Below the pieces are notes generated by a model. That model saw nothing but the letters and a program-made list of their open reading frames with translations. It searched no databases and was not told the origin of the DNA. Source: Anaerolineae bacterium (GTDB lineage: Bacteria; Chloroflexota; Anaerolineae; Aggregatilineales; Aggregatilineaceae). From it: a stretch of 64,000 nt of DNA. The position numbers and the translations under genes were made by a program. The first letter of the stretch is position 1; the number at the start of each line of letters is the position of its first letter. Shown piece by piece: positions 5,616 to 16,414 of the stretch. Location of the stretch: NCBI GenBank assembly GCA_023382715.1, contig JAHDWP010000011.1, forward strand, positions 1-64,000, read 5' to 3'.

Positions 5616-7079
5616 TCAACGGGCCTGGGCCGCCGCGAAAGCAGCTCGCGCAACGCGCGCGGCGACGGCTGGATCGCGCTCGCCCTCGACGATGACGACG
5701 GCCACCGTCGTCGTCGCGCTCTGGCCCTCGCTGCTGCGCGCAAACCCGACGAACCAGGCGTAGGGCGTCTCGTCCGGCCCGGCGTAGGCCAGCGCGCTGT
5801 GCCCGAAGAGCGTGTAGCCGCCACCCTGGGCCTGCTGCGTGGCCGGGTTGGTCTCCGCCGCGTAGCCCAGCGCCTGCTCCAGCGCCCGCGCCACCTCTGC
5901 GCGCAGCATGGCGGACGGCTGCCCCGCCCCGGCGACCGGCTGCCAGGTCTCAGCTTCCGGCTTGCGCACGGCGTCCACCAGATGGGGCGGCATGGCGTTA
6001 CCTTCATGGGCGATGGCAGCGACCCATTGCGCCATCTGTAACGGCGAGACGGTCAGCCCGCCCTGTCCGGCCAGCAGCGCCGTCCATGCTTCGGGCACGG
6101 CGCTGCCCGGCTGGGCGATGGGCGCTGCCGCCGTCTCGAACCCCTCCAGGGCGGGCGCGCTCAGCAGCCCCAGCACGCGCAGCCGCTCCCACAGGGAATC
6201 CCCCGTCAGGCCCGCCTCGAAGGCCGCCACAAAGGGTGCCGGGCAGCCGTAGGCATAGGCGTCGGCCAGCGTGAGGACATCGCCGGGAGGATCGCTCGTG
6301 CAGCCCAACGTCAGATCGCCGACGACCACCGGGGCGCTCCCGTCCTCGACCGCCCTCGACAGCACGCGCTCGCCGCCATCGCTCAGGTCAGTCTGCGCGC
6401 CGAGCAGCGCGGCCAGGATCACCGTCTGGAACGCCCCGCCCGGCTGGTAGAGGCCCGCCGCCGCCCGGTTGAGCAGGGGCGAGGCCGCGCGATCAGCGCG
6501 CAGCGTATCCCACTGCGCGTCCAGGACGTTCGGGTCGTAACCGGGCAGGCTCGCCAGGGCCAGCACACCACCTGTCGCCGCGTCCAGCACCACCGCCGCG
6601 CCCGCGCGCCCTTCCAGCGCGCCGATCACTGCTTCCTGCACGTCCAGGTCGAGCGTGGCGCGCACGTCGCTGCCAGCCGGAGAGCGATGCAGCAGCTCGT
6701 CGAGCAGAACGTCCGCGTCGTCGCGCCCCTGGTCGCCGCGCAGGACGTCGTCATAAGCCGCTTCGATCCCGGCGACGCCATAAGTGAGGCTGTAGTAACC
6801 GATCGCGCTGGCCGCCGCCGGATGCGGATAGCGCCGCACCATCAGTCCGCCCGCGCTCTGCTCGCTGAGCGCCAGCGGCTCGCCCGTCCGGTCAAGGATA
6901 GCGCCGCGCGCGATGCGCTGCTCGGCGAGCACGTTGCGGGCATTGTCGTCGCGCGCGCGCAGGTCTGCGGCGCGCAGCACTCCCCAGTAGGTCGCGCCGA
7001 GCGCAACCAGCGCGAACGCGATGAGCACAGCCATCGCCAGGCGGCCCAGGTCCCTGCTGTGGCCGGGGGAATCGTTCAC
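5616..7079 (-). CDS. penicillin-binding protein-like transpeptidase with all catalytic motifs lost
   Basis: A 487-residue FtsI/PbpA-type protein. It has one N-terminal membrane segment (about 13-33), the RGAILDRTGEPLA motif typical of class B PBPs (58-70), IGYYSLTYGVAGIEAAYDD (93-111) and a C-terminal transpeptidase fold marked by AAVVLDAATGGVLALASLPGYDPN. The active-site motifs are gone. The SxxK site reads GAFQ (215-218) inside YQPGGAFQTV, the SxN region reads GCP (278-280), and KTG is replaced by GHS (426-428). The frame is intact with clean codon usage, so this is probably a maintained pseudoenzyme, not a decaying gene. GTG start 7079 overlaps the stop of the RodA/FtsW gene by 4 bp, which implies translational coupling and a role as partner of that glycosyltransferase. 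Confidence 0.88.
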   Translation of the reverse strand: MNDSPGHSRDLGRLAMAVLIAFALVALGATYWGVLRAADLRARDDNARNVLAEQRIARGAILDRTGEPLALSEQSAGGLMVRRYPHPAAASAIGYYSLTYGVAGIEAAYDDVLRGDQGRDDADVLLDELLHRSPAGSDVRATLDLDVQEAVIGALEGRAGAAVVLDAATGGVLALASLPGYDPNVLDAQWDTLRADRAASPLLNRAAAGLYQPGGAFQTVILAALLGAQTDLSDGGERVLSRAVEDGSAPVVVGDLTLGCTSDPPGDVLTLADAYAYGCPAPFVAAFEAGLTGDSLWERLRVLGLLSAPALEGFETAAAPIAQPGSAVPEAWTALLAGQGGLTVSPLQMAQWVAAIAHEGNAMPPHLVDAVRKPEAETWQPVAGAGQPSAMLRAEVARALEQALGYAAETNPATQQAQGGGYTLFGHSALAYAGPDETPYAWFVGFARSSEGQSATTTVAVVIVEGERDPAVAARVARAAFAAAQAR

Positions 7080-8389
7080 GACGCGCGCTCTCCCCGCTCG
7101 CTGAGCACCAGCAGCAGCCCCACCACCGTGAAACTGGTCAGCAGCGAGCTGCCGCCATAGCTGATGAACGGCAACGTGACGCCGGTCAGCGGGAGCAGCC
7201 GCAGCACGCCGCCCATGATCAGCAGGCCCTGTACGGCCAGCAGCACGCTCAGCCCGGCAGCGAGGAGCATGTCGAAGGGCTGGCGCGCCTGGGCCGCGAC
7301 GCGCATCCCGCGCACGACCAGCACGGCCAGCACCCCGATGACGCTCAGCGCGCCCACCAGCCCCCATTCTTCGGCGATGGCGGCGAAGGCGAAATCCGAA
7401 TGGACGACCGGGATGATCCCCGGCTGGCCCTGGCCGATGCCCTGACCGAGCACCCCGCCCGACGCCACCGCGATCAGGCTCTGCACGATCTGATAGCCTC
7501 CCGCATTGGCCGTCGGCCAGGGATTCCACCAGATGTCCACGCGCAGGGCCACCACGTCGAACAGCCGGTAGGCGACCGCGCTGGCGATGGCCAGCAGCGC
7601 CGCCCCGCCGGCCAGCAGCAGCGCCTGGCCGCTGGCCAGGTACAGCATGGCCATGAAGACGGCGAAGAACAGCGTCGCCGTGCCCAGGTCGCGCTGCCAG
7701 ACCAGCACGATCACGCAGACGCCCCACATCAGCAGCACCGGTCCCAGAAAGGCCGGTGACGGCACCCGCCAGGGTCCCAGGCGTACCGTGTCCTGGCGCA
7801 TGTAGCGCCCGTGCTCGGCGAAGTAGCTCGCCAGAAACGCCACCAGCAGAATCTTGAGCAGCTCCGACGGCTGGTAGTACACGCGACCGAGGCCCAGCCA
7901 TAGCCACAAGCGCGGCCCGGTGTCCGCCGGATTTTCCCCGACGAAAATCGTCAGAAAGAGCAGCGCCAGTCCGCCGATCAGCCACGTGTAGCGGTAGCGG
8001 CGCAGCCAGCGCAGGTCGCGCGGCAGGGCCGTCAGCGCCAGCAGCGCCAACATGCCCACCACCAGCCACGAGGTCTGGCGCACCGTGTACGACGGCACAA
8101 GCCGCGCGATCAGGTTCAGCCCCCACCCGGTCAGCAGCATCGCCAACGGGAAGAGCAGCGGGTCGCGCGCGGGCAGCCGCCGGTTGAGCAGGGCATGTCC
8201 CCCCGCCGCGCACAGCGCCCACATCGCCACCGGCCACAGGTGGGACACCGGGCGGTCGCGGGCGAGCAGCAGCGCCACATGGTTGATCAGGATGAACGCG
8301 CCGCCCAGGGCGAGCAGCAGCCGCTCGCGGCGCGCGGCGGGCGCACCCTCTTCCAGGTCGTCCGCGTAGTGAGGGGTCAGAGGGGGCAT
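7076..8389 (-). CDS. FtsW/RodA/SpoVE SEDS peptidoglycan glycosyltransferase
   Basis: A 437-residue polytopic membrane protein of the SEDS family, which polymerises lipid II into glycan strands. About ten hydrophobic segments are visible. Family signatures include LGRVYYQPSELLKILLVAFL, VWQRDLGTATLFFAVF, SDFAFAAIAEEWGLVGAL and the C-terminal LPLTGVTLPFISYGGSSLL. The catalytic-type Asp is present in the WQRDLGTA segment. It starts with ATG 8389 and overlaps the downstream PBP-like gene by 4 bp, the usual SEDS-bPBP pairing. Whether it acts in division (FtsW) or elongation (RodA) cannot be decided without mre or fts neighbours. Confidence 0.95.
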   Translation of the reverse strand: MPPLTPHYADDLEEGAPAARRERLLLALGGAFILINHVALLLARDRPVSHLWPVAMWALCAAGGHALLNRRLPARDPLLFPLAMLLTGWGLNLIARLVPSYTVRQTSWLVVGMLALLALTALPRDLRWLRRYRYTWLIGGLALLFLTIFVGENPADTGPRLWLWLGLGRVYYQPSELLKILLVAFLASYFAEHGRYMRQDTVRLGPWRVPSPAFLGPVLLMWGVCVIVLVWQRDLGTATLFFAVFMAMLYLASGQALLLAGGAALLAIASAVAYRLFDVVALRVDIWWNPWPTANAGGYQIVQSLIAVASGGVLGQGIGQGQPGIIPVVHSDFAFAAIAEEWGLVGALSVIGVLAVLVVRGMRVAAQARQPFDMLLAAGLSVLLAVQGLLIMGGVLRLLPLTGVTLPFISYGGSSLLTSFTVVGLLLVLSERGERAS

Positions 8390-8545: not shown

Positions 8546-9418
8546 TTACTCGCCGAAATACTTGCCGACGATGGGCCGCAGCCGCGCCAGCGTCTCCGGC
8601 GGAATGGCCGCGCGCGCCGTGATCAAGGCGTTCGCCAGGGCATTCTCGCATTCGCAGGCGCGCGCGCTCCCCGCCAACCGCTCGACCGCCGCCAGCAGCG
8701 CCTGTTGCGCCAGGCGTACGTTGGCGCTCAGCGTTTGCAGCACCAGCTCGACCGATACGTCCTCTTCCGACTCGTGCCACACGTCGTAGTCGGTGATGTG
8801 AGCCATCACCGCGTAGCACATCTCCGCTTCGCGGGCCAGGAACGCTTCGGGCGACGTGGTCATGCCGACCAGGTCGCAGCCCCACGAGCGGTAGAGCGCG
8901 CTCTCGGCGCGGGTGGCGAAGCGCGGCCCTTCGCTGGTGATGAACGTGCCGCCCCGGTGCACGGTGCCCCCGTTCGCCTGCGCCGCGTCGGCCAGCACGG
9001 CGCTCAGGTGCGGGCAGAAGGGGTCCGCCGCCGAGACGTGGGCCACCAGCCCATCGCCGAAGAACGTCCGGCCTCGCTTGTCGCGCGTCCAGTCCACCAG
9101 TTGGTCGGGGACGGCGATGTGGCCGGGCGCGATGGCCTCGCGCAGCGACCCGCACGCGCTGACGCTGATCACCCGCTCCACGCCGAGCGTCTTGAAGGCG
9201 TAGATATTGGCGCGGTAGGGCACTTCGCTGGGCGTGAGCACGTGTCCGCGCCCGTGCCGCGCGATGAAAGCGACGCGCTGCCCGGCCAGCGTGCCAATGC
9301 GTAGCGCGTCGCTGGGCGGCCCAAACGGAGTCTCGATGTGCTGCTCGACCACATCGGTCAGCTCCGGCATCTCATACAGGCCAGAGCCGCCGATTACGCC
9401 AATTCGCACTGCATCCAT
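8546..9418 (-). CDS. mtnP: S-methyl-5'-thioadenosine phosphorylase
   Basis: A 290-residue PNP/MTAP-family phosphorylase that splits methylthioadenosine into adenine and methylthioribose-1-phosphate in methionine salvage. The N-terminal IGVIGGSGLYEMPEL, the phosphate and ribose-site motifs FIARHGRGH and PYRANIYAFKTLGV, VSACGSLRE, ITSEGPRFATRAES and the purine-side MTTSPEAFLAREAEMCYA are all present. The ATG at 9418 has GGAG 8 nt upstream; a GTG 9 nt further up is also possible. It follows the B-box gene by 37 bp on the same strand. A related specificity (methylthioinosine or guanosine) cannot be excluded from sequence alone. Confidence 0.93.
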   Translation of the reverse strand: MDAVRIGVIGGSGLYEMPELTDVVEQHIETPFGPPSDALRIGTLAGQRVAFIARHGRGHVLTPSEVPYRANIYAFKTLGVERVISVSACGSLREAIAPGHIAVPDQLVDWTRDKRGRTFFGDGLVAHVSAADPFCPHLSAVLADAAQANGGTVHRGGTFITSEGPRFATRAESALYRSWGCDLVGMTTSPEAFLAREAEMCYAVMAHITDYDVWHESEEDVSVELVLQTLSANVRLAQQALLAAVERLAGSARACECENALANALITARAAIPPETLARLRPIVGKYFGE

Positions 9419-9455
9419 CCACAGCACTCCTCTCTGTGCAGAAGGAGAAGGTCGC

Positions 9456-10230: not shown

Positions 10231-10298
10231 AATTGCGGATTGCGGATTGCGAATTGTGGATTGCAGATTTCTGATTTCGCAATCCGCAATCCGCAATT
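10231..10298. repeat. perfect 23-bp inverted repeat built of heptamers
   Basis: Arms 10231-10253 and 10276-10298 are exact reverse complements of 23 bp with a 22-bp loop. The whole tract keeps a 7-bp phase (ATTGCGG, ATTGCGG, ATTGCGA, ATTGTGG, ATTGCAG, ATTTCTG, ATTTCGC, AATCCGC, AATCCGC). The stop codon of the CHAT gene lies inside the right arm. The RNA would fold into a strong hairpin and could end or protect the CHAT mRNA, but it has no T-run. Confidence 0.75.
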
Positions 10299-13200
10299 AC
10301 AGAGCGGACAGTCCCTGCACGATGCGCTCCAGCGCGGCGGCGTGCTCGCTCAGATTCAGCTCGATCAGGCGCTGGCGCGAGCTGGCAGCCTGGGCAGCCG
10401 TGTCCTGGCAGAAAGTGGCGTCGCCCTGCAGGGCGTGGCGGGCGCGAATCTGGTGGACGCGCACGAGAACATCTGCCGCGCGGCACAGAGCGTCCGGCAG
10501 ACTCAGCGCCCTGGCCAGGTCGAGCGCCTCGTGCAGCGCCGACTGTGCGCTCACCGCGTCGCCCAGGGCCATACGCAACTGACCCAGCGTGATCGCTGCC
10601 TCGGCCAGGTCGGGCAGGCTTTCCACCTCGGCCAGCAGAGCGTGCGCGCGCGCGGCGTTGGCTGCGCCGTCGTCCAGGATGCCCGCCTGCGCCTGCGCGC
10701 GGGCCAGGTCGTGCAGCGCGCGCGCCAGCCGCAAGCGATCTGGCAGGGCCAGCGTGTCGGCGACCGCCGCGCTCAGGTGCCGCACCGCCTCGCCCAGCTC
10801 GGCGGCGGCCTCGCCCACGCGCTCCTCGCGCGCAAGCTGATCGGCGCGGCCCCGGTGCAGCCCGGCCAACTGCTGACGTAGCTCGGCGGCCAGGTCGCGC
10901 CGGCCCGCAGCGTCCGCCGTGGCCAGCGCCCGGCGCAGCACGTCTTCGGCGCGCGCCGTCTCGCCGAGCGCGATCAGCGACGCGCACAGGTCGCGCTGCA
11001 CTTCCGCCGAAAGCTCGGCCTGCCTGGTGCGCGCGTACCCGGCGATGGCCCCCTCAAAGCGCTTGATCGCGTCGGCGTGCTGGCCGCGCGCGGCGAGCGC
11101 CCGTCCCCATTCGCAGGCGAGCATCGCCGCCACACGCACATCCGAGCCGTCCGGCTGGGCCATCACCGCCCGGAAGGAGCGCGCCAGCAAGTCCACCGCC
11201 GCCCCCGTCTGTCCAACGGCGACGAGGTGCTGGCCATAGGCCAGGCTCGCTTCGGCCAGCACGGGGCGGCTCAGCCCTTCGATGGCCAGCGTCACCTGGA
11301 AGAGCCAGCCCGCTTCGTCTTGCTTGCCGGGCAGCGCGCTGATTATGCTGCCCAGCGCCACCTGCAGCCGCGCCAGATCGTTGCCCTCTGGCAACTGGCT
11401 GCGCACGCCTTCGGCGTAGCGCGCAAATTCGCCGGCCAGCCCCGCCGCCGCAAAAGTCGGGGCCGCCGCCACGAGCAGGCGCGCCAGCTCCACCGGCGCA
11501 GCGACCATGCCGGCGCCGATCTCCCGTTCGAGCAGCGCGCGGACGTTGTTCAGCCGCGCCCGGCTGACGGCGTCCAGCGGGCTGGTGAGATCGTCGGGCC
11601 AGGTCTGCGCGAAGTATTGTGCGATCACGCGGTCAAGGTGCGCCTGCTTGGGCGCGTCCAGCGGGAAGCGCTCGCGGATGAAGGCGCGCACTTCGTCCGG
11701 GATGACGAACAGCGCCTCGTCGCGGCGCAGCACGTCCCGCGCCAGCAACAGCTCAAGCTGTTCGGCGGCATCGCCACCGGCCAGCCCCAAAGCCAGTCGC
11801 TCGTCGAAGCCGTCCGGGATGCCCTGCGCGCGAATCAGCAGTTTGAGCGCGTCGCGGTGATCGGCCATCAGCCATTCAAGCTGGCGGCGCAGGTACGCGG
11901 CGGGCAGGGCAGCATCATCGTCCTGGTCGAACGCGCTCAGATACTTGAGCGTCGCCTCCACGCCGTCACCGCGCACCATCTCTACGCCGCGCACGATCAG
12001 CCAGGGCAACTGGCGCGTCCGGTCGAGGAAGTCGTCAATCGTGTCCACGTCCAGCGCTTCGACGCCGCGCACAACAGCGCGGCGCATGGCCAGGGTGCGC
12101 GCGTCTCTGGCGGGCAGCCGCTCCGCCGCGCGCAGCTTCGCCGTGAAAGTCGGGCCGGTGGGCAGCAGCGCCTCGTCGGGCTGGGTGGCGGTCAGGATGA
12201 CGCCGTGGCCCGCCGGAGCCAGCAGATCGGCCAGGAAGTCGGCCAGCGCGTGGCGCTCTGCCCCAGAGCCAAGCGCGTCCACCCGCTCCAGCACCAGCAG
12301 CAGACGTCGCCCAGCCAGCGCCGCCAGCACGTCATCGCGCGGCGCCAGCGGCGGCAGCCCGGCGACCCCGGCCAGCAGCGCCTGGACTTCGCGGACGGTC
12401 GTCGTCGCGCCACAGCGCAGCCAGATCACGCCATCGCGAAAGCGCCAGCCAAAACGGTTGGCGAACTCCGCCGCCAGCCAACGCTTGCCCACGCCGTCCG
12501 GCCCGGCCAGCAGCACCAGGCGGCGGTCGAAGCGGAACATGTCTTCGGCCAGCTTGCGCAGCAGCTCGCGCCGCCCGACGAATCCGAGCGGAAGGGGCAG
12601 GTCATAGGTGCGCGGCATCCCGTCAGCGATCAGCGGGCGAGGGGCGCGCTGGGCCGGCTCTGGCAGGGCCAGCCACACCTCGTGGCGGGTGTCGTCAATG
12701 ACCAGCTCGTAGCGGTCTGCCTGCCCGTCCGGGCGGTCGCGCAGATCAGCGATCGCCGCGCGAAACGCCTCGCGCACGCCCGCGCCGCCGGCCAGCTCTG
12801 CGTAAAGGCGCGCGTTGAAGGCGACCGCCTGCTCTTCCGACGCCCGGCGCCGCGTACCCAGCACCGCCTCGACCGGCGTCTCGTCGAGCAACATCTGCGC
12901 CAGCCGCCGGCTGAAGCACCCGTCCAGGATCACCAGGCGCGCTCCGCTGGTCGCGAACAGCTTCACGGCGTGCTCGGCCACCATGTAGGCTTCGCTGCCG
13001 TCGTCGTCTTCCAGGTAGAGCATGTCGCGCTCGCCGTGCGCGACGAAGTGCACGATGCGAAAGGCATCGGCGCCATGACTGGCCAGCGCCGCCGCCAGCC
13101 GCTCGGCGGTCGGCGGCAACAGGCGCGCCAGCGCCAACGGCGCGCTCGTCGCTTTCTGCTTCGGCCCGGCTTCCTTCAGCGCGCGCAGCAGGGTGTGCCA

Positions 13201-13404
13201 TTCCTGGGCGGGGTCTGCCGGGCTGAGCGGGTCCTCGTTGCCGCTCATGGAGGCGAACGGCGCGGCGATCACTGCCAGCACCGGCAGGTAGCAGCGCAGT
13301 TGGGCCAGGCCAGGGTCGCCAGCCACATCATGACCGCTGATCACGGTGTATTCCATCGCAGACAACAAGGAAGGCTCCGGGGTGAGAGGCGGATTCTCGC
13401 TCAT
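10297..13404 (-). CDS. CHAT protease - STAND ATPase - TPR protein
   Basis: A 1035-residue multidomain protein. Residues about 1-240 form a CHAT (caspase-like) domain with the catalytic dyad visible as VHFVAHGERD (H123) and LVILDGCFSRR (C163). A STAND/NB-ARC-like ATPase follows after GFVGRRELL: Walker A GPDGVGKRWL (K307), Walker B-like LLLVLERVD (about 368-376), and later helical segments. The C-terminal 450 residues are Ala/Leu-rich helical repeats of TPR type. This architecture is that of signal-activated proteases with apoptotic or antiviral roles. The ATG at 13404 follows TATACT by 8 nt, so the mRNA may be leaderless. It is a single gene with no obvious effector partner next to it. Confidence 0.88.
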   Translation of the reverse strand: MSENPPLTPEPSLLSAMEYTVISGHDVAGDPGLAQLRCYLPVLAVIAAPFASMSGNEDPLSPADPAQEWHTLLRALKEAGPKQKATSAPLALARLLPPTAERLAAALASHGADAFRIVHFVAHGERDMLYLEDDDGSEAYMVAEHAVKLFATSGARLVILDGCFSRRLAQMLLDETPVEAVLGTRRRASEEQAVAFNARLYAELAGGAGVREAFRAAIADLRDRPDGQADRYELVIDDTRHEVWLALPEPAQRAPRPLIADGMPRTYDLPLPLGFVGRRELLRKLAEDMFRFDRRLVLLAGPDGVGKRWLAAEFANRFGWRFRDGVIWLRCGATTTVREVQALLAGVAGLPPLAPRDDVLAALAGRRLLLVLERVDALGSGAERHALADFLADLLAPAGHGVILTATQPDEALLPTGPTFTAKLRAAERLPARDARTLAMRRAVVRGVEALDVDTIDDFLDRTRQLPWLIVRGVEMVRGDGVEATLKYLSAFDQDDDAALPAAYLRRQLEWLMADHRDALKLLIRAQGIPDGFDERLALGLAGGDAAEQLELLLARDVLRRDEALFVIPDEVRAFIRERFPLDAPKQAHLDRVIAQYFAQTWPDDLTSPLDAVSRARLNNVRALLEREIGAGMVAAPVELARLLVAAAPTFAAAGLAGEFARYAEGVRSQLPEGNDLARLQVALGSIISALPGKQDEAGWLFQVTLAIEGLSRPVLAEASLAYGQHLVAVGQTGAAVDLLARSFRAVMAQPDGSDVRVAAMLACEWGRALAARGQHADAIKRFEGAIAGYARTRQAELSAEVQRDLCASLIALGETARAEDVLRRALATADAAGRRDLAAELRQQLAGLHRGRADQLAREERVGEAAAELGEAVRHLSAAVADTLALPDRLRLARALHDLARAQAQAGILDDGAANAARAHALLAEVESLPDLAEAAITLGQLRMALGDAVSAQSALHEALDLARALSLPDALCRAADVLVRVHQIRARHALQGDATFCQDTAAQAASSRQRLIELNLSEHAAALERIVQGLSAL

Positions 13405-13412
13405 AGCCCCGC

Positions 13413-13418
13413 AGTATA
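13413..13418 (-). promoter_or_regulatory. -10 box of the CHAT gene (leaderless spacing)
   Basis: Read on the minus strand, TATACT lies 8 nt before the ATG at 13404, leaving no room for a ribosome binding site in the transcript. The -35 is weak, and the region overlaps the tail of a terminator-like hairpin. Confidence 0.5.
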
Positions 13419-13431
13419 GTCCAAACGGCAC

Positions 13432-15046: not shown

Positions 15047-15481
15047 TCAGTCCAGCTCGACGCGCAGCTCCGACCGCCCCACGCCGATCACGTCGCCCGA
15101 CGATAGTACGACCGGCTCGCGCACCGGCTGGCCGTTCAGGCGTGTGCCATTGCTGCTGTCCCGGTCTTCCAGCCACCATTGCCCATCGCGCCGCGTGACC
15201 AGCGCGTGCTCCTGGCTGCAAAAAGAGTCGTCCAGCACGATGGTATTGGTCGGCGCGCGGCCCAGCGTTGTCAGTGGCAGCAGTGCGTAGCTGGCCCCCA
15301 GGCGCGCCGCAGCGCCCATGCCCACCACGACCAGCCGGCCCCGGCGTCGCCCTGGCTCGCCCGCCGCCGCCGTCGCCGCCTGGAAGTCGCGCCAGAGCAT
15401 GAGGAACACCGCGCCCAGGAAGGCCAACAGCAGGCCCCCGGCCAGGATGCGCAGCGCCAACAGCACAGCGTCCACCTTCAC
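15047..15481 (-). CDS. membrane-anchored FHA domain protein
   Basis: A 144-residue protein. One N-terminal membrane segment (about 5-28) precedes a forkhead-associated domain, a phosphothreonine-binding module. The FHA signature is clear: TLGRAPTNTIVLDDSFCSQEHALV (GR..N.I.L.D...S..HA) and WWLEDRDSSNGTRLNGQPV (DL.S.NGT..N). The ATG at 15481 overlaps the stop of the upstream DUF3662/FHA gene by 4 bp, so the two are translationally coupled. The pair matches the fhaA-fhaB arrangement known in actinobacteria, where FHA proteins link Ser/Thr kinases to wall synthesis. No kinase is visible in this window. Confidence 0.88.
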   Translation of the reverse strand: MKVDAVLLALRILAGGLLLAFLGAVFLMLWRDFQAATAAAGEPGRRRGRLVVVGMGAAARLGASYALLPLTTLGRAPTNTIVLDDSFCSQEHALVTRRDGQWWLEDRDSSNGTRLNGQPVREPVVLSSGDVIGVGRSELRVELD

Positions 15482-16299
15482 GGCTCCTCATCAAAGGCGT
15501 CGTCGTCATCAACAGCGCGCAGATAAATCTCCGTATCGCCGCCGGGAGCGCCGTTCGCGCTGGTGGTATTCTCGTCCACGACATAGACCAGCTTGACGCC
15601 GGCCAGCGAGAGGACATCGCCGGAACGCAGCACACACTCCGATACGCGCGCATCGTTGACGAACGTCCCGCCCCGGCTGGCCAGATCGTAGAGCACAAAC
15701 TCGCCGAAACGGTAGCGCAGCTGGCAGTGATGGCGGCTGACGCGCCGGTCGTCGAGCACGATGGTGTTGTCGCGCCGTCGCCCAATGTTGATCACCGGGC
15801 GCTCAAGCAGCACGTAGCGGTCGCCGTCCACCACCAGGTAGGCCGGGGGCGGCGGCGCGTCGGGGGGCAGATCGGTGGAGCGCAGATCGCGCTCCAGCAG
15901 CAGGCGGGTCGTCCGGCGCGTGGCGTCTACATGCTCGGCGTGCACGAAGACCGTATGGGCCGCCACTTCCGGGTCGGAGACGAACAACACTTCGGGCGGT
16001 GTTTCCAGCCGCAGGTCGCTCTCGCGGGCCAGCGCCACGATGTCGCTCGCCAGCGAGACGTCCAGATCGGGGTGGGCATCCAGCAGCGCCCGGTGATCGT
16101 CGGGATGAAGCCGCACCGCGTAGTGGTTCGGCGCGGCGAGTGTCCCGCTGGAGTCGAGCGCCGCCCCGTCCTCCATCGCCCGCGCCAGGCGGAGCGCCAC
16201 TTCGCGCGGCTTGAGCCGCCCGGCGAACAGCCGCGCAAAGCCGCCTTCGACCAGCGCCTGCACGCGCTCCTCGAACTGCGTGAACCGGTTCCTGTCCAT
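15478..16299 (-). CDS. DUF3662 + FHA domain protein (FhaA-like)
   Basis: A 273-residue protein with an N-terminal DUF3662 domain (about 1-120; RFTQFEERVQALVEGGFARL is its hallmark, with the following RLKPREVALRLARAMEDG) and a C-terminal FHA domain (about 165-250; INIGRRRDNTIVLDDRRVSRHH and YDLASRGGTFVND). The Arg and Ser phosphothreonine-contact residues are present. The start at 16299 was chosen because the DUF3662 pattern starts there and because TATAAT lies 7 nt upstream, which suggests a leaderless message. In actinobacteria FhaA binds the pseudokinase-regulated flippase MviN; here the partner is unknown. Confidence 0.9.
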   Translation of the reverse strand: MDRNRFTQFEERVQALVEGGFARLFAGRLKPREVALRLARAMEDGAALDSSGTLAAPNHYAVRLHPDDHRALLDAHPDLDVSLASDIVALARESDLRLETPPEVLFVSDPEVAAHTVFVHAEHVDATRRTTRLLLERDLRSTDLPPDAPPPPAYLVVDGDRYVLLERPVINIGRRRDNTIVLDDRRVSRHHCQLRYRFGEFVLYDLASRGGTFVNDARVSECVLRSGDVLSLAGVKLVYVVDENTTSANGAPGGDTEIYLRAVDDDDAFDEEP

Positions 16300-16306
16300 G
16301 CCGGGG

Positions 16307-16312
16307 ATTATA
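16307..16312 (-). promoter_or_regulatory. -10 box of the FHA operon (leaderless spacing)
   Basis: Perfect TATAAT on the minus strand, 7 nt before the ATG at 16299. The -35 at 17-bp spacing is weak (TTCTCT). The same arrangement is seen at the histidine kinase (1717) and CHAT (13413) genes. Confidence 0.6.
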
Positions 16313-16414
16313 CCAGGCAATCGTCCCACAGAGAACGCCCGTCGGGCAAACGTTGGGGGGCAGACTCGCGCCTGCCCCCGCTTGCCCAGTTACGCGCTAA
16401 CGGTCGCCCGCCGC

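Follow-up and report, generated by a model that had tools for sequence, protein, structure and literature searches.

A gene in the window, by which we mean the whole 64,000-nucleotide stretch analyzed from contig JAHDWP010000011.1 of an Anaerolineae bacterium, encodes a protein that, judged by its sequence, is a pseudo-member of the PbpA-type class B penicillin-binding proteins (PBPs), with the predicted fold of the family but not its enzymatic residues. The explanation we favor, with a probability of roughly 0.78, is that a natural pseudo-transpeptidase has been kept as a structural or activating subunit of its SEDS glycosyltransferase, with cross-linking supplied in trans by other transpeptidases. 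The initial annotation of the gene had likewise suggested a retained pseudo-transpeptidase, and the suggestion holds up: all three active-site motifs are lost in 131 of 184 classified rows, dN/dS among close orthologs is 0.21-0.30, and neither of the two contrary findings it had named, an intact SxxK elsewhere in the protein or a loss limited to a single strain, was made. The features of the region are collected in Table 1.

Table 1. Features of the window, with coordinates counted from its first nucleotide.
Feature	Coordinates	Strand	Basis and remarks
Predicted pseudo-transpeptidase, PbpA-type, coding sequence	5616..7079	-	487 aa; GTG start at 7079, TGA stop at 5616-5618
N-terminal helix, residues 5-35	6975..7067	-	Secondary structure of the AlphaFold2 model
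Pedestal, PBP_dimer_2, approximately residues 58-139	6663..6908	-	PF21922; sole match in the genome
Former SxxK, now GAFQ, residues 215-218	6426..6437	-	Multiple alignment
Former SxN, now GCP, residues 278-280	6240..6248	-	Multiple alignment
Former KTG, now HSA, residues 427-429	5793..5801	-	Multiple alignment
SEDS glycosyltransferase, FtsW/RodA family	7076..8389	-	437 aa; PF01098, E 3.5e-73; PDB FtsW/RodA by sequence
SEDS D332 codon (HSDF)	7394..7396	-	Aligned with P. aeruginosa FtsW HTDF
PNP_UDP_1 phosphorylase	8546..9427	-	Pfam; adjoins the SEDS gene
FHA pair (small FHA protein and FhaA_N-FHA protein)	15047..16329	-	Pfam; upstream, same strand as the pseudo-PBP

The clean reading frame noted in the initial annotation is indeed open across all 487 codons, from GTG to TGA, with no internal stop; the locus had been given correctly and the strand, which is minus, had been left out. 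Pfam finds the PbpA pedestal (PF21922, E 5.3e-13, above the curated cut-off) and the transpeptidase domain (PF00905, E 9.4e-22), and the NCBIfam matches (PBP2/MrdA, SpoVD, FtsI and similar) all fall far under their cut-offs. An AlphaFold2 model based on a 94-row alignment has pLDDT 94.6 and pTM 0.92. Its top structural match is Mycobacterium tuberculosis PBPA (PDB 3lo7; Z 45.1, rmsd 2.1), with 394 residues aligned at 31% identity, and the PBPA fold thus predicted over residues 51-486 bears out the earlier description of an otherwise intact class B PBP. The N-terminal helix is taken as a membrane anchor, a role carried over from the class B PBP family.

Two of the three motif replacements reported previously are recovered in the multiple alignment exactly as read, SxxK as G215-A-F-Q218 and SxN as G278-C-P280. 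The third motif, KTG, is lost as stated, but its reading as GHS was one residue off: GKTGTA lies over GHSALA, which places H427-S-A429 at the KTG position. The protein contains a single lysine, K373, and neither S..K nor K(S/T)(G/A) occurs anywhere else along its whole length. A displaced catalytic triad is therefore impossible, and we discarded it as a candidate. In all 32 intact rows of our first data set the six positions of greatest diagnostic value read S, K, S, K, T, and G; the Asn position of SxN holds N in 31 of them and D in one. Across the 112 rows of that set labeled lost, position 218 is never K and position 280 never N, position 427 is K only in the row L136 discussed below, and the SxxK serine persists, without its lysine, in 11. 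From these substitutions we infer that the pseudo-PBP would neither bind penicillin nor carry out transpeptidation.

Certain columns of the alignment are fixed, or nearly so, in the lost rows. C260, C279, and W442 occur in all 88 full-length lost rows and P280, which stands at the catalytic Asn position of SxN, in 98% of them; C260 and C279 are each found in 53% of intact rows. The two cysteines seem to be a structural pair close to the dead pocket. A new catalytic site replacing the old one, for example Cys279 with His427, would profit from the constancy of C279 and from the presence of His at 427 in 54 of the 112 rows labeled lost, but that position is elsewhere F, Q, Y, L, W, and others, and the joint fixation of both cysteines, given their frequency in intact rows, suits a structural role. 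We rejected the Cys/His catalytic pair on the lack of conservation at H427, and consider a substitute active site very improbable.

Relatives were collected by comparing the window protein with 396 genomes of the same class, by searching alignment A1 against 301 genomes of the phylum, and by scanning contigs of named genomes. The first data set comprised 152 loci, from which eight were dropped (seven touching contig ends, and L178), leaving 144 aligned with the window row included, 112 labeled lost and 32 intact. Twenty further loci, from families f32, f9, f56, f59, and f60, are all lost. Another 20 loci were fetched from other classes, 12 with a profile match in the N-terminal half only and eight from other families, because such half-length matches could have hidden losses; all 20 are intact in all three motifs and none is fused to SEDS. 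The 184 classified rows, window included, thus divide into 131 that have lost all three motifs, 52 intact, and one disrupted. The intact rows sit in outer lineages and other classes: 14 belong to this class (families f12, f38, f42, f51, f52, f54, and f55), 36 to other classes of the phylum, and two to named genomes, a Thermomicrobium MAG and an Actinomycetota MAG. In an earlier set of 25 other-class loci, 16 of which entered the first data set, SxxK is kept in 25 of 25, the pairwise alignment used there having misplaced SxN or KTG in several. Within the class, 236 of 392 genomes have PF21922, and the classified rows are therefore a sample. The closest named relatives, an Anaerolineae MAG (L042) and a Thermoflexus MAG (L043), are approximately 80% identical to the window protein and show the same loss, which is thus not peculiar to one strain.

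Two apparent exceptions were examined individually. L136 (genome G006, family f12), labeled lost at first, was set aside, is excluded from the 131, and was rejected as an independent second loss: it keeps GKTGTA, and a low-complexity run of Glu, Leu, and Gly stands in place of everything from SxxK to beyond SxN. It is treated as a disrupted gene or an assembly artifact beside its intact sister L028. A pattern match to GKSGTY in L216 was rejected as a KTG motif because its location, residue 524, is in the pedestal and off the KTG place. Separately, one genome (G304) has two SEDS-PBP pairs: L169, which is fused and lost, and a more distant one with intact motifs, the L178 dropped above. Of the 301 phylum genomes, 31 (family f66 and others) gave no hit with the PBP alignment; among these, the 20 that were listed are small (0.9-2.2 Mb), with few candidates, and are possibly wall-less relatives.

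The SEDS gene and the pseudo-PBP gene overlap by four nucleotides (GTGA), which makes the translational coupling to ftsW/rodA proposed in the initial annotation plausible. D332 of the SEDS protein aligns with the Asp of the FtsW HTDF motif, a residue that we take to be catalytic. This position is Asp in all 126 SEDS rows aligned (24 intact, 56 lost, 46 fused) and in all 20 additional SEDS rows, 146 of 146 altogether. The 126 rows are those of the 144 with a SEDS frame of at least 300 residues in the locus, adjacent or fused in most; no such frame was found in the locus for 8 of 32 intact and 10 of 112 lost rows, partly owing to contig ends. We built a likelihood tree of the 126 rows under LG+C20 with PMSF, using a quick search and an outgroup from the Actinomycetota. 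In it the lost rows, 101 once L136 is left aside, form one clade with SH-aLRT 93, under the starred level. The f12 pair is the sister of this clade (node 99), and the remaining intact lineages branch further out. As the lost rows form one clade, the loss is most simply a single event, which would have occurred inside this Chloroflexota class and before the split of the sampled lost families.

Conservation of the SEDS partner bears on another explanation, that the pair makes a glycan not meant for cross-linking, or polymerizes some other lipid-linked substrate, in either case separately from the normal wall, which would be the work of the two other SEDS proteins of the genome. Loss of transpeptidation would be costless if the product needed none, and the window SEDS is the third in its genome, the other two lying on contigs with a class B PBP that carries SxxK and KTG. 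However, the SEDS columns conserved in at least 95% of rows, the Asp included, are common to lost and intact rows, and in sister lineages an intact PBP accompanies a SEDS of the same kind. We regard a separate product as unlikely.

The evidence from gene architecture agrees with a subunit role for the pseudo-PBP. SEDS and PBP occur in a single open frame in 50 of the 152 loci and in 19 of the 20 further lost loci. Among classified rows the fused form accounts for 67 of 131 lost against none of 52 intact, where the SEDS gene was within the locus for 38 of the 52 intact rows (24 of 32 and 14 of 20) and the unfused lost rows are an upper bound, some contigs ending right before the PBP. Fusions are found in ten family codes (f9, f10, f15, f32, f40, f50, f53, f56, f57, and f59), and the SEDS tree requires seven changes between fused and unfused states, four of them forced by starred branches. 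All seven fusions examined with Pfam have SEDS plus PBP domains: six (L140, L177, L162, L175, L164, and L035) match PF01098, PF21922, and PF00905, and L179 matches PF01098 and PF00905. An AlphaFold2 model of the natural fusion L140 (884 residues) has pLDDT 90.4 and pTM 0.81; among the 50 matches listed from a structural search with it, only the PBP half was matched. The alignment lacks the SxN region for families f9, f21, f32, f46, and f50, and the PBP part of f9, f21, f32, and f46 is shorter, at 341-426 residues.

A dN/dS comparison, which the initial annotation had proposed as a check, indicates purifying selection among three close orthologs (the window, L042, and L043; Nei-Gojobori method): 0.21-0.30 for the PBP and 0.13 for SEDS, with 0.16-0.23 for the pedestal and 0.20-0.31 for the transpeptidase part. 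Over longer distances we compared identities in pairs matched for SEDS divergence, figures that serve as descriptions and not as tests because the pairs are non-independent. At 45-55% SEDS identity (107 intact and 796 lost-unfused pairs), pedestal identity is 0.42 in intact and 0.43 in lost-unfused pairs and helix identity 0.34 and 0.33, whereas identity of the transpeptidase part goes from 0.47 to 0.30. The 35-45% band gives 0.38 versus 0.40 for the pedestal and 0.43 versus 0.29 for the transpeptidase part; the 55-70% band holds just four intact pairs, too few for use. Full-length fused rows at 45-55% show a smaller fall of the transpeptidase part, to 0.39, with the pedestal at 0.51. The helix and pedestal are the part of a class B PBP known to interact with SEDS. 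Our reading of these identities is that selection best preserves the part that meets SEDS, and that the transpeptidase part is relaxed.

Such relaxation relative to intact relatives, together with the disappearance of every catalytic residue, is what a decaying gene might present. Decay is nevertheless rejected on the open frame, the dN/dS values, and conservation across a clade of 101 rows spread over many family codes, with the fold predicted throughout; we find it hardly tenable. More serious is the proposal that the dead domain is a non-covalent sensor or guide, which would bind a stem peptide or nascent strand and either gate SEDS or pass strands to another cross-linker. The high-confidence predicted fold, the dN/dS of the transpeptidase part in close orthologs, and the clade-specific fixed columns (C260, C279, W442, P280) of full-length lost rows all speak for it. 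Purifying selection on this part, with C260, C279, and P280 near-fixed, also counts against the explanation we favor, as it points to a function beyond SEDS activation. At equal SEDS divergence, however, transpeptidase identity falls far more than that of the pedestal, and since five families are missing the SxN region, binding in the pocket cannot be general. We consider a sensor role possible but doubtful as the main explanation.

Retention of the pseudo-PBP as a SEDS subunit leaves cross-linking to other enzymes, and the genome, at 3.88 Mb and 98.6% complete, is well supplied with them. Seven other proteins match PF00905, three of class B (L001-L003) and four of class A (L004-L007), all seven with SxxK and KTG patterns, and four proteins match YkuD. 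With these present the atypical wall that the initial annotation had offered as an alternative is not needed. The pseudo-PBP is the genome's only match to PF21922, which indicates that PbpA was altered in place and not duplicated. One of the three class B proteins, L002, is of the MecA_N type, with GSVFK, NSCNVY, and GKTGTA patterns. Of 80 chosen genomes, 50 have a lost PbpA, and 49 of these carry MecA_N (G218 being without); 29 have an intact PbpA, and 17 of these carry it, as does G006, counted apart from both groups. These are raw genome counts, uncorrected for kinship, and seven of the 12 intact genomes without MecA_N are less than 90% complete. The nearest intact lineages (f12, f38, f54, and f55) also have MecA_N. 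Kinship, incompleteness, and this presence in the nearest intact lineages make MecA_N a lead only, and it may be a precondition of the loss rather than a response to it. The MecA_N-type class B PBP is the leading candidate for the cross-linker.

In the mechanism we propose, the PbpA partner of the third SEDS polymerase would have lost its acylation site while keeping its membrane helix, pedestal, and fold. SEDS would polymerize lipid II, and the pseudo-PBP would hold and switch it through helix and pedestal. The dead domain would be a scaffold or sensor, in the course of being trimmed in some lineages, and the glycan product would be cross-linked by other PBPs of the cell. Transpeptidation and SEDS activation are normally tied together in one class B PBP. 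A stronger version of the proposal, which we hold only tentatively and rate below even odds, is a SEDS synthase decoupled lineage-wide, in which a dead, beta-lactam-blind partner is in the course of merging into the polymerase as a regulatory domain and cross-linking falls wholly, in trans, to a stand-alone MecA_N-type PBP. If that version were true, transpeptidation and SEDS activation would have been split in nature, and every step from active PBP to dead partner, fusion, and shortened domain would still be visible.

Precedents for the separate parts of this mechanism come from model bacteria. Bacillus subtilis with a catalytically dead PBP2B (S309A) divides if the MecA-N-bearing PBP3 supplies transpeptidation (PMC5656894), and asymmetric division in Clostridioides difficile is partly supported by a dead SpoVD (PMC12713402). 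Both resemble the pseudo-PBP in having a role without catalysis, and the former also in that cross-linking comes, here presumably, from another PBP; unlike it, both are laboratory mutants of active enzymes, whereas the loss described here is natural and clade-wide. According to PMC6207328, RodA is activated by changes in the pedestal of PBP2, and SEDS activation by the pseudo-PBP is what we would infer by analogy. The same paper describes an engineered RodA-PBP2 fusion, largely functional in vivo, which likewise joins SEDS and class B PBP in one chain; unlike it, the fusions reported here are natural, have a dead PBP, and occur in ten code-numbered families. Its authors also argue there that coupling polymerase to cross-linker avoids toxic uncross-linked glycan. 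A pseudo-PBP system would forgo that protection, which counts against the explanation we favor. Other points that weigh against it are the sub-starred support of the lost clade, the SxxK serine kept in 11 rows labeled lost, and the rows whose locus has no SEDS frame of sufficient length.

Among known structures, M. tuberculosis PBPA (PDB 3lo7, 3un7) shares the transpeptidase fold and PbpA-type pedestal, and differs in that its structures, by their titles, include penicillin, imipenem, and ceftriaxone acyl-enzymes, where the pseudo-PBP is without all three motifs. The "peptidoglycan glycosyltransferase" of Atopobium parvulum (PDB 4jbf and others) has its PBP numbered 523-947 in the chain, suggesting a long N-terminal part that may be a SEDS domain; SEDS-PBP fusion as such may therefore not be unique to the lost clade. 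The A. parvulum structures with penicillins and cephalosporins, again by title, make its transpeptidase look active, unlike the pseudo-PBP. Inactive LytM-domain regulators such as DipM (PMC10336132) likewise have a wall-enzyme fold that has lost catalysis and regulates other proteins, but they act on autolysins and not as synthase partners. In the open-licence PMC literature we recognized no natural inactive SEDS-partner PBPs and no natural SEDS-PBP fusions. With the fold and pedestal of PbpA but without its catalytic residues, the window protein is best described as a natural pseudo-class B PBP subunit, and its family as a clade-wide form of the SEDS-class B PBP synthase.

Point mutants of model bacteria have been the means of asking whether SEDS needs its class B PBP as an enzyme or only as a switch. 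Evolution seems to have separated the roles here, in many families of a single class, keeping the part that meets SEDS, losing the catalytic site, and often fusing the remnant to its partner. The natural reduced proteins, consisting of SEDS, a helix, a pedestal, and a shortened domain, are offered as material for biochemistry, and the SEDS synthase is predicted to be untouched by beta-lactams. A large number of genes would be misnamed by the label "penicillin-binding protein" or "transpeptidase."

Some of the relatives also have FHA genes upstream of the pair. Of 91 longer loci, 24 have a match to the small FHA protein no farther than about 5 kb from the PBP, and 23 have a match to FhaA; in L105 the FhaA match is on the opposite strand, downstream. 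FHA genes near a SEDS-PBP pair also occur in the Actinomycetota relative L047, and the arrangement in the window resembles what we take to be the actinobacterial FHA-RodA-PbpA neighborhood. An open reading frame related to the PNP_UDP_1 phosphorylase is found somewhere in 60 of the 91 longer loci. Between the phosphorylase gene and the FHA pair, window positions 10297-13431 encode a 1044-residue protein with weak matches to AAA_22 and TPR_12 and an N-terminus that seems to us reminiscent of CHAT proteases; its product is perhaps a signaling ATPase.
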